Assembly: GCA_024239075.1 (NCBI GenBank) | Contig: JANBVI010000004.1 | Location: forward strand, 186,001-250,000 | Direction of reading: 5' to 3' | Source of the DNA: Fischerella sp. CENA71 | GTDB taxonomy: Bacteria; Cyanobacteriota; Cyanobacteriia; Cyanobacteriales; Nostocaceae | Length of the DNA: 64,000 bases | Shown here: piece after piece, positions 28,026 to 59,688 of the stretch | Numbering within the stretch: position 1 is the stretch's first letter | How the letters are laid out: each line of letters opens with the position of its first letter | Made by a program: the position numbers and the translations under genes | The notes under the pieces: model-generated | Databases searched by the model: none | Told to the model about the DNA's origin: nothing | What the model saw: the letters and a program-made list of their open reading frames with translations, nothing else

Positions 28026-28098
28026 TTTGTCATTTGTCATTCGTCATTTGTCATTTGTCATTCGTAAATACAAAGGACAAATGACTAAGGACAAATAG
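28026..28098. repeat. TCATTTG heptamer array with inverted partner
   Basis: Repeated TCATTTG and TCATTCG units (28026-28066), followed by the inverted form GGACAAATGAC (about 28074-28096). It separates the ends of the convergent cphA and tatA genes and can fold as a hairpin, so it may act as a bidirectional terminator. Confidence 0.7.
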
Positions 28099-28278
28099 CT
28101 ATTTTTCTTCTTCCTCTGGCGTAGAATCCTCGTCATTGCTGGTTTTATTCAGTTCTTCTTTAAAACCCCGCAAGGTTTTACCTAGTGCGCTTCCCAGTTC
28201 AGGGATTTTTTTTGGCCCAAAAACTAGCAAGGCGACGATCGCTATTACACCTACTTCTGTCCATCCCAGTCCAAACAT
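28099..28278 (-). CDS. tatA: Twin-arginine translocase subunit TatA/TatE-like
   Basis: 59 residues, read directly from the minus strand (ATG at 28278, TAG at 28101-28099). It starts MFGLGWTEVGVIAIVALLVF, one TM helix, then the hinge FGPKKIPELGSALGK and an amphipathic helix TLRGFKEELNK, ending in an acidic tail. This is the diagnostic TatA/B/E layout (FGP followed by K-P-E-L-G). The protein forms the pore of the Tat system in the plasma and thylakoid membranes. Convergent with cphA. Confidence 0.93.
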   Translation of the reverse strand: MFGLGWTEVGVIAIVALLVFGPKKIPELGSALGKTLRGFKEELNKTSNDEDSTPEEEEK

Positions 28279-56948: not shown

Positions 56949-58040
56949 ATGGCTTCCGTAATTAAAGTAAATCTACCGCAGCAGTCTTATGAGATTGCGA
57001 TCGCACCAAGTAGCCTAGATCAATTAGGCGAATATATTGCTAATTTACAGTTAGGTAAGAAAGTTTTGCTAGTTTCTAACCCGACTGTTTTTCACTTTTA
57101 TGGAGAAAGAGCGATCGCATCACTTCAGGCTGCCAATTTTGAAGTTGCAAGCCATATTTTACCTGATGGCGAAAATTACAAAACCTTGGCATCGGTAGAA
57201 AAATTATACAATACAGCACTGGAAAATCGCTTAGAACGCTCCGCCACGATGGTAGCTTTGGGAGGCGGTGTCATTGGCGATATGACGGGTTTTGCGGCGG
57301 CAACTTGGTTACGCGGCATTAATTTTATACAAGTACCTACAACCCTTTTGGCGATGGTAGATGCAGCCATTGGTGGGAAAACAGGCGTCAACCATCCCCA
57401 AGGTAAAAACTTAATTGGCGCATTCCATCAACCACGATTAGTATTACTTGACCCCGATGTATTGAAAACCCTACCTGCACGGGAATTCGGTGCAGGGATG
57501 GCAGAAGTGATCAAGTATGGTGTAATTTGGGATGCCCAGTTATTTGCTGAATTGGAAGCAAGTCTGCGCTTGGATGAAATGGGATATATTCAGCCAGAAT
57601 TAATAGACAGCATATTAACTCGCTCCTGTCAAGCTAAAGCTGATGTTGTCAGCAAAGATGAGAAAGAAGCTGGATTACGGGCGATACTCAACTACGGACA
57701 TACCATCGGTCATGCAGTGGAAAGCTTGACAGGTTATACACAAATACTGCATGGGGAAGGTGTTGCGATCGGTATGGTAGCAGCAGGACAGATTGCTGTA
57801 GAACTAGGAATGTGGACTCAGGCTGAAGCAAAACGCCAAGATGCTTTAATAGAAAAAGCAGGTTTACCAACTAAATTACCGTCTGGCTTGGATATTGAAG
57901 CAATTATTGAAGCATTGCAGATTGATAAAAAGGTGAAAGCGGGTAAAGTCCGGTTTGTATTACCAACCCAAATTGGTGCAGTGACGGTGACAGATCAAGT
58001 CCCAGCAGATATAATTCGACAGGTGTTACAGAATATGTAA
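56949..58040 (+). CDS. aroB: 3-dehydroquinate synthase
   Basis: 363 residues. It forms 3-dehydroquinate from DAHP in the shikimate pathway. Motifs: [10 protein letters not shown], the nucleotide-binding [39 protein letters not shown] and the metal-binding residues in [13 protein letters not shown] and [10 protein letters not shown]. Intact at full length. It follows sodC by 72 bp on the same strand. Confidence 0.96.
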
Positions 58041-58084: not shown

Positions 58085-58699
58085 TTATTCATCCCGCAAC
58101 AAGACATACAAATTCTTCTGATTCCCACGCATCAGGCGAAAATTTTCATCTAAATAGGTAATATCTGTCCAACCGCTAAATGAAAGTTGTGATTCAACAG
58201 GAGATTCATCATCTACTGCTAGAGCTTCTCGAAAGGCGGAATCACTTAAATCGTTATTTGCACTTTTGACGGATGTTTCTAGGAAATCTATATTAAGACG
58301 CCGGGAGTTTTCTATTGTATAGCGTCCTCTGACAACAGTAACTGCTCTAAAACCAGAACTTGCTGTACACTCAATCAAGTTATTATATTGCTGATCAATT
58401 AGGTAAATTTCTTGAAAAATACCAGTAACGCTAACATTTACATTTGGTAGCTTTCCAAAAGAAAGACGTTGCAGAGTCGTTTCTCGTTCTAAACCAAATG
58501 TACTGTATAACAGCTGCCACCGCCCTTGTAGCAATTCCATCTGCTTTGTAGGTTGGCTATTGGGATTGAAAGCCTCAATTTTTTCTGCTAAACTCTCGAT
58601 TTCCTGCTTAACTGCTGGGGTGCAGTTAAATCCCATATCAGCAGAATCTGCGATCGCAATCAGTTTTTGTTTGAGATTTATTAGTTCATTATTCATCAA
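58085..58699 (-). CDS. PAP/fibrillin family protein (plastoglobulin-like)
   Basis: 204 residues. It contains the family pattern: an N-terminal helix (LKQKLIAIADSADMGFNCTP), LLQGRWQLLYSTFGLERETT and IECTASSGFRAVTVVRGRYT, closing with FRLMRGNQKNLYVLLRD. Fibrillins bind lipids and protect the photosynthetic membrane against photooxidative stress. Convergent with aroB, with GGTGTAG-type repeat text between them. Confidence 0.88.
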   Translation of the reverse strand: MMNNELINLKQKLIAIADSADMGFNCTPAVKQEIESLAEKIEAFNPNSQPTKQMELLQGRWQLLYSTFGLERETTLQRLSFGKLPNVNVSVTGIFQEIYLIDQQYNNLIECTASSGFRAVTVVRGRYTIENSRRLNIDFLETSVKSANNDLSDSAFREALAVDDESPVESQLSFSGWTDITYLDENFRLMRGNQKNLYVLLRDE

Positions 58700-58770: not shown

Positions 58771-58858
58771 TCCGGATGCATTCATTAGTCAGACGGATAA
58801 AGAAATGGTAGATGCACCCGAGTTTGTAGCCTTCAGCCTCTGGCTGGGGGCTTTATTA
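58771..58858 (+). ncRNA. Small RNA unit A (promoter element, about 50-nt RNA, terminator)
   Basis: TCCGGA at 58771-58776, then 19 bp, then a -10-like GATAAA (58796-58801). The likely RNA starts near 58806-58809 (GGTAGATGCACCC) and ends at a Rho-independent terminator: arms GCCTTCAGCC (58829-58838) and GGCTGGGGGC (58842-58851) with a 3-base loop, followed by TTTATTAT. Unit B, 160 bp downstream, has the same layout. TCCGGA near -35 is the element reported for heterocyst-specific (DIF-type) promoters in Anabaena, and tandem short RNAs of about 60 nt match the published style of NsiR1. hetF, the usual neighbour of NsiR1, is not in this window. Confidence 0.65.
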
Positions 58859-58927
58859 TAGCACGTTTCAATATATTAAAACTTCTGCCTTCGTAGGGAT
58901 TGAAAATATTTGCTCTTCGTTAATTTT

Positions 58928-59013
58928 TCCCGGATGCTGTTGTTAGCACCATGGATATAGAAGTGGTAGATGCACCTTAATTGCTGCCCTCAGTCCTGCA
59001 CTGAGGCTTTTTT
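58928..59013 (+). ncRNA. Small RNA unit B (promoter element, about 50-nt RNA, terminator)
   Basis: TCCCGGA at 58928-58934, 19 bp, then GATATA (58954-58959), followed by AGAAGTGGTAGATGCACC, nearly identical to unit A. The terminator has arms CCTCAGT (58988-58994) and ACTGAGG (59000-59006) and a run of seven T around one C. Sequence between the -10 and the terminator differs, but the 5' block GGTAGATGCACC is perfectly kept, suggesting that it is the functional part of the RNA. Confidence 0.65.
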
Positions 59014-59055
59014 ATAAAAGTTTCTAGCTTTAAATAAAAATCAATTGCTAATTTA

Positions 59056-59688
59056 TTAGCGTAGAAGTTCTGGTAGTAAAGTTGGAGCTGTAAAAAATAA
59101 ATAACCAATCAGGGTAAATAATAGAGTAGTTAAAACAGTAAATATGTAGCCAATACACATCAGTAAACCATCGGATTCTATTGTTGCTACTGCTAATAGT
59201 AAAATACCTACAGTTGGGATAGGGTTTGTAAGAGGAATAGGTGATATTAGCAACACTGCTAACCAAGAAATACAAAACCCATTAAATCGCCAAACATAAG
59301 GATGAGCAGCTATTTTTGACAAGCGAGGGCGAGCAATTTTTTCTAGAATTCTGGTAATGCGTCGCAAATTTTGCAATAGGATATTGGCAAAAGCGCGAGG
59401 AAATTTATATGTAGCTATTTTTCGAGGTAGCCAAGGCGATCGCCTACCCAAAACCATTTGTATTGACAGTATCAAGCAAGCGCCACCAAATGGCCCTGTT
59501 AATCCTGGCGGCATTGGAAACAAAAAGGGTAAAACTAACAATGCAATCACCAAATTAAAACCTCGTTCCGAAGTTTCTGCCAGGATATCTCCAAGTGACA
59601 ACGGCTTTTCAGCTAACCGTTGTAACAATAACTTGATATCTTGAGAAAATTTTAGATGCATCTGTTCTGAGGCGATGTGAGTCTTCAC
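59056..59688 (-). CDS. ExoD-like exopolysaccharide synthesis protein
   Basis: 210 residues from a GTG at 59688, or 201 from an ATG at 59661. The family pattern is present: PLSLGDILAETSERGFNLVI, LPFLFPMPPGLTGPFGGACL and a row of hydrophobic segments (IALLVLPFLFP, LAVLLISPIPLTNPIPT, VLTTLLFTLIGYLFF). ExoD was linked to exopolysaccharide formation in rhizobia; the biochemical role is unknown. The start choice is uncertain. Confidence 0.88.
   Translation of the reverse strand: MKTHIASEQMHLKFSQDIKLLLQRLAEKPLSLGDILAETSERGFNLVIALLVLPFLFPMPPGLTGPFGGACLILSIQMVLGRRSPWLPRKIATYKFPRAFANILLQNLRRITRILEKIARPRLSKIAAHPYVWRFNGFCISWLAVLLISPIPLTNPIPTVGILLLAVATIESDGLLMCIGYIFTVLTTLLFTLIGYLFFTAPTLLPELLR

Follow-up and report, generated by a model that had tools for sequence, protein, structure and literature searches.

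Two tandem putative NsiR1-type small RNA units with DIF1-type promoters next to exoD in Fischerella sp. CENA71

A 64,000-nucleotide stretch of the Fischerella sp. CENA71 genome (assembly GCA_024239075.1, contig JANBVI010000004.1, positions 186,001 to 250,000), referred to here as the window, carries two tandem units beside exoD. We consider it likely that these units, A and B, specify two NsiR1-type small RNAs (about 51-52 nt each) that end in a terminator, have their own DIF1-type promoters, are probably controlled by HetR and act in trans. The pair is one of at least three NsiR1-type loci in this genome, a paralogue that coexists with the array at hetF.

An earlier note on this DNA had described two tandem units with a TCCGGA or CCCGGA element, 19 nt to a -10-like box and a shared 5' block, and direct reading confirmed all of these elements (Table 1). 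The terminators which it had claimed were located in both units as terminator-like hairpins with tails, the T-tract of unit A (TTTATTATA) being poor, and Pfam searches bore out PAP/fibrillin and ExoD as the flanking genes. DIF1 promoters, which are heterocyst-specific, are defined by TCCGGA (one mismatch allowed) near -35 together with an A/T-rich extended -10 region (PMC6133370). Both units carry such a TCCGGA-type box and an A/T-rich extended -10, upstream of a transcription start placed by prediction, and from this promoter type we infer heterocyst-specific expression. For 58 aligned DIF+ promoters, the passages concerned in that source describe conservation only at -35, around -10 and at the start, and mention no shared transcribed 12-nt block such as the units would have (PMC6133370).

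Table 1. Features of the two units and of their neighbourhood (window coordinates)
Feature	Position	Strand	Basis and remarks
Unit A, whole	58771-58858	+	read directly
Unit A DIF1-type -35 element, TCCGGA	58771..58776	+	read directly; invariant in 7/7 genomes (own included)
Unit A extended -10 region, GGATAAAGAAAT, exoD-type, GGAT at -12	58795..58806	+	invariant in 7/7 genomes (own included)
Unit A -10-like box, GATAAA	58796-58801	+	read directly; 19 nt after TCCGGA
Unit A 5' seed, GGTAGATGCACC	58807-58818	+	read directly
Unit A putative sRNA, ~52 nt	58807..58858	+	RF02399 match 58806-58858; seed, linker and hairpin invariant in 7/7 genomes
Unit A terminator-like hairpin, 11 pairs, weak T-tract	58828..58852	+	folding and terminator scan
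Unit B, whole	58929-59015	+	read directly
Unit B DIF1-type -35 element, CCCGGA	58929..58934	+	read directly
Unit B extended -10 region, GGATATAGAAGT	58953..58964	+	read directly
Unit B -10-like box, GATATA	58954-58959	+	read directly; 19 nt after CCCGGA
Unit B 5' seed, GGTAGATGCACC	58965-58976	+	read directly
Unit B putative sRNA, ~51 nt	58965..59015	+	RF02399 match 58964-59015
Unit B terminator-like hairpin, then T-run	58988..59006	+	terminator scan
3-dehydroquinate synthase gene	56949-58040	+	Pfam
PAP/fibrillin gene (PAP_fibrillin), divergent left neighbour, inconstant partner	58085..58699	-	Pfam PF04755
exoD, convergent neighbour	59056..59688	-	Pfam PF06055

A joint promoter-plus-seed pattern matched twice in the window and in none of 100 dinucleotide shuffles, the pattern having been built from the two units themselves and being fitted to them. 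The 12-mer GGTAGATGCACC has exactly two exact occurrences in the window; when up to two mismatches were allowed, five matches were obtained against 2.95 expected, so it is the combination of elements, and not the 12-mer alone, that exceeds chance. The terminator scan of the window on its own was not above chance (two found; shuffles gave a mean of 1.2 with an sd of 1.2), and the folding energies of units A and B were unexceptional (z of -1.33 and -0.46, respectively). In an alignment of 24 units, a selection among those available from which L030 was excluded, five of the ten pairs of the predicted hairpin had changes on both sides.

At the default threshold of Rfam, no family passed gathering anywhere in the window. 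Under relaxed thresholds the NsiR1 model (RF02399), whose consensus itself begins UGGUAGAUGCACC, aligned over model positions 1-60 to unit B with 35.4 bits and to unit A with 34.2 bits, the highest bit scores in the window. The corresponding E-values were 0.0031 and 0.0059 for the whole window, and 2.9e-5 and 5.5e-5 when a 601-base stretch was searched. A microRNA match, evidently spurious and located on a palindrome (28035-28093), reached an E-value (0.0039) between those of the two units, so that the NsiR1 scores alone are not decisive. The earlier note's proposal of an NsiR1 resemblance thus stood as regards alignment, which is full length for both units, and fell short as regards score, the gathering threshold being 39 bits; judged from sequence, the resemblance is real. 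Among 20 further sources, which include one of the same genus (L004) and two loci away from exoD (L010 and L028), NsiR1 was matched 29 times, with scores between 31.6 and 48.7 bits. Twelve of the 29 passed gathering, all of them adjoining an ExoD-like ORF, and exoD-side units of other genera scored up to the 48.7 bits. The palindrome itself, about 75 nt long (window 28026-28102), drew weak microRNA families on both strands and is probably a small inverted-repeat element.

Set beside NsiR1 of Nostoc sp. PCC 7120, the window pair is alike in its tandem short units with a DIF1-type promoter each, in the 5' UGGUAGAUGCACC, in the terminator-like hairpin, in the equal spacing from -35 to seed and in its full-length alignment to the model. 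NsiR1 is described as an RNA of about 60 nt with a 5' GGUAGAUGCACC and a terminator hairpin, each unit having its own DIF1 promoter; the window units are predicted to be 51-52 nt long and have an identical 12-nt block, hairpins, and a -35 distance equal to that of the hetF units. In contrast to NsiR1, which lies upstream of and divergent from hetF, the pair has PAP/fibrillin and exoD for neighbours and is not antisense to hetF; it comprises two units as opposed to 12, has GGAT where NsiR1 has GAA at -12, possesses a shorter hairpin region and scores below gathering. Two other nitrogen-stress-induced, HetR-dependent small RNAs of Nostoc, NsiR8 and NsiR9, are likened here by description and are longer, at 171 and 122 nt (PMC4734099).

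The Fischerella genome retains an NsiR1 array of the conventional kind. Contig C76 encodes a HetF-like protein of 842 aa with a CHAT domain, which we take to be HetF in view of its divergent NsiR1 array; upstream of its gene, on the opposite strand, lie four perfect DIF1-seed units, and Rfam returned five NsiR1 matches of 48.7-63 bits, above gathering, plus one of 31. A third locus, on contig C20 (L079:1463-1513, 51.5 bits), is a solo unit flanked on one side by lgt and on the other by a gene that, by eye, resembles a precorrin methyltransferase. Solo units closely resembling it adjoin an lgt-like ORF in L061, L062 and L069. Within the hetF-side array there is also a run of degenerate short repeats, ctggtagatgactggtagatgactaaataaaa (L163:2760-2945, minus strand), which looks like amplification of the seed portion alone, with neither promoter nor terminator.

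Relatives of the genome are, in the same genus group, Pelatocladus maniniholoensis HA4357-MV3 (G001), Fischerella muscicola PCC 73103 (G002), Westiellopsis prolifica IICB1 (G003) and Fischerella sp. PCC 9431 (G004), and, in a neighbouring group, F. thermalis PCC 7521 (G011). In seven genomes (own included), all 64 core columns of unit A (-35 box, positions -12 to -1, seed, linker and hairpin) were invariant. Outside this core, in the flanks, in the spacer and between the units, 80 of 124 columns were invariant, a difference with a one-sided Fisher p of 4e-10 if columns are taken as independent. Conservation of unit B is weaker: 48 of its 61 core columns were invariant in six genomes, and its seed was changed in three relatives (G002, G011 and G062). 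In Westiellopsis (L005), unit B has lost the -35 box and its hairpin portion is replaced or interrupted by other sequence, while unit A is intact.

The locus recurs beyond these relatives. ExoD matches at an E-value of 1e-25 were found in 90 of 150 genomes, 71 of them in Nostocaceae, and one exoD locus was examined in each of 89 genomes (G147 was left out). A unit, called at up to four mismatches over 18 bases within the stretch covered, was present near exoD in 41 of the 71 family genomes and in none of the 18 outside the family. Because some stretches were short (400 bases in L167, 300 bases in L188) and G059 was missed, its unit adjoining exoD with other spacing, 41 of 71 is a lower bound. 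The units were convergent with exoD in all 41 genomes; the seed of the last unit lay 48-59 nt from the exoD stop in 12 of 38 measured loci, and in G032 (L060) the unit was 54 nt from exoD. Four genomes (G040, G047, G050 and G087) kept units (L066, L065, L022 and L017, respectively) with ExoD undetected, a count in which assembly gaps could conceal exoD in the more fragmented assemblies. In G050 and G087 the seed start and the -35 box are altered; in G047 the unit is followed directly by a lipid-kinase-like gene (named by eye), which elsewhere comes after exoD. On the left side, the neighbours of the units vary between genera, and among seven close genomes a PAP-like ORF was present in L001, L003, L004 and L005 and absent from the listings of ORFs of at least 90 aa for L002, L006 and L007. 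Retention of the units where exoD was not detected, or where no PAP-like ORF was listed, favours action in trans.

These observations bear on two other ways of reading the pair. The earlier note had suggested a different or a relocated array, and of these the former proved right, the pair being an extra, divergent NsiR1-type locus next to exoD. Relocation was wrong, and is rejected because the genome has both the hetF array and the exoD-side pair. In a wider form, the pair would derive from the hetF array as a copy that has moved or is decaying and has no function of its own, as the two scores under gathering, the disruption of unit B in Westiellopsis and the changed unit B seeds would allow; a hetF array still present with its five matches above gathering, a unit A core free of variation in seven genomes and the recurrence of the locus across the family speak against it, and we regard it as unlikely. 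Still less credit can be given to the idea that the units regulate the divergent PAP/fibrillin gene as antisense RNAs. It is modelled on NsiR1.1, which is antisense to the hetF leader in Nostoc (PMC9045159, PMC8406250); the window shows the same divergent layout, with the listed PAP start and the beginning of the unit A seed 108 nt apart. However, three of the seven close genomes have no listed PAP-like ORF, the left neighbours are not the same across genera, and the listed PAP ORF begins about 236 nt (L003) and about 306 nt (L004) from the seed, yet unit A is invariant. PAP/fibrillin was accordingly discarded as an antisense partner on the evidence of the variable neighbours of the units, and this reading is highly improbable.

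Within Nostocaceae, the pattern TCCGGA-N30-GGTAGATGCACC with at most one mismatch occurred in 212 of 218 genomes, and a reversed control pattern was absent from the matches listed for these genomes. The letters at -12, picked after inspection of the units, define two promoter types, GAA in hetF-side and GGAT in exoD-side units; the hetF-type form was found in 200 of the 218 genomes (52 of 56 genera) and the strict exoD-type form in 130 (33 of 56 genera). Units of the exoD type are not always at exoD, those of L028, L029 and L057 adjoining an FHA-like gene (named by eye).

Across the order, the same pattern was matched in 228 of 388 genomes, the reversed control matching once in G098 and once in G294, and a HetR-family protein (PF03574) in 236, the genome under study among them. 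Both were present in 205 genomes, HetR only in 31, units only in 23 and neither in 129. This co-occurrence agrees with control of the units by HetR and is confounded by descent; the 52 discordant genomes speak against a strict link. The -35 box is altered in several of the unit-bearing genomes that lack a HetR match and unaltered in others. HetR-negative genomes with units occur in groups f32 and f18, where most of the units are -35 variants (TCCCGA or TCCTGA in f32, and TGCGGA in genus g95 of f18); units in such genomes may depend on a different regulator or sigma factor. In group f15, genomes such as G298 and G369 contain 24 and 30 matches, respectively, to the NsiR1-type pattern. Since a 57-nt NsiR1-like RNA has been reported from Limnospira (PMC8400943), the occurrence of such units in cyanobacteria that do not form heterocysts is not by itself a novelty.

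By analogy with NsiR1, whose transcription is HetR-dependent and heterocyst-specific, the units would probably come on at an early stage of heterocyst development, controlled by HetR. Each RNA would present a weakly structured 5' block, GGUAGAUGCACC, common to hetF-linked NsiR1, as a pairing seed, which would most likely occlude the start codons of mRNAs in trans and so repress their translation. Of the two genes that NsiR1 represses, hetF and alr3234, the latter sets the precedent: NsiR1.4 binds its start region in Nostoc (PMC9045159, PMC8406250). The NsiR1 5' block is kept, its hetF position is not, and either neighbour may be missing, which makes action of the seed in trans the best reading. 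As to targets, alr3234 belongs to the HetP family, for whose model the Fischerella genome has only one match. The start regions of HetP, HetR and PAP gave no seed signal, ranking 43, 64 and 54 for unit A among 83 start regions, a set drawn from the window plus 13 loci, part of them in other genomes, with ATG starts only and the hetF start left out.

The neighbour exoD, an exopolysaccharide-related gene, is one candidate target. A stronger form of this proposal, in which the RNAs act mainly on exoD through pairing of the seed at the start codon region and repression in heterocysts, plus antisense contact at the exoD 3' end owing to the convergent layout, is conceivable and in our judgement doubtful. 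The exoD mRNA reads AUGCAUCUA at its likely start, Met-His-Leu, and seed nucleotides 3-10 are perfectly complementary to 8 nt there, UGCAUCUA, which is suggestive of pairing; among the 83 start regions ordered by duplex energy, this one came second for unit A, where a further helix past a large loop contributes some of the energy, and ninth for unit B. The short distance of the last seed from the exoD stop in those 12 loci would suit the 3'-end contact. CATCT was found at the start of 22 of 43 family exoD genes counted with units as against 7 of 28 without (p 0.047), and the full 8-mer in 11 of 43 as against 2 of 28 (p 0.063); these p values ignore kinship, however, and 5 of the 11 full-8-mer genes come from one genus. 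Moreover, many ExoD proteins begin Met-His-Leu anyway, outside the family too, seed energies with and without units were not clearly different in the family (p 0.09), several unit-bearing genomes have non-complementary starts (for example ATGAATTTG), and units are kept in the four genomes with exoD undetected. Five genes were looked at, exoD among them, so the exoD lead is after the fact; with weak comparative support, we present exoD as a candidate and not as the target.

In most of the literature, as far as the sources reach, NsiR1 is the hetF-linked array, and the literature covered, which did not extend to the full text of Ionescu 2010 and Brenes-Alvarez 2020, contained no recognised exoD-side NsiR1. 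We tentatively envisage NsiR1 as a multi-locus seed family which predates heterocysts and tracks HetR across the filamentous cyanobacteria, and whose exoD branch could be a separate heterocyst regulator with exoD translation among its targets. At least three NsiR1-type loci in a single genome would oblige mutant and overexpression studies to reckon with extra copies of the same seed. With one such locus recurring at exoD in many genera, the targets of the family may exceed hetF and alr3234, and an order-wide spread that largely tracks HetR renders the role of HetR before heterocysts testable.
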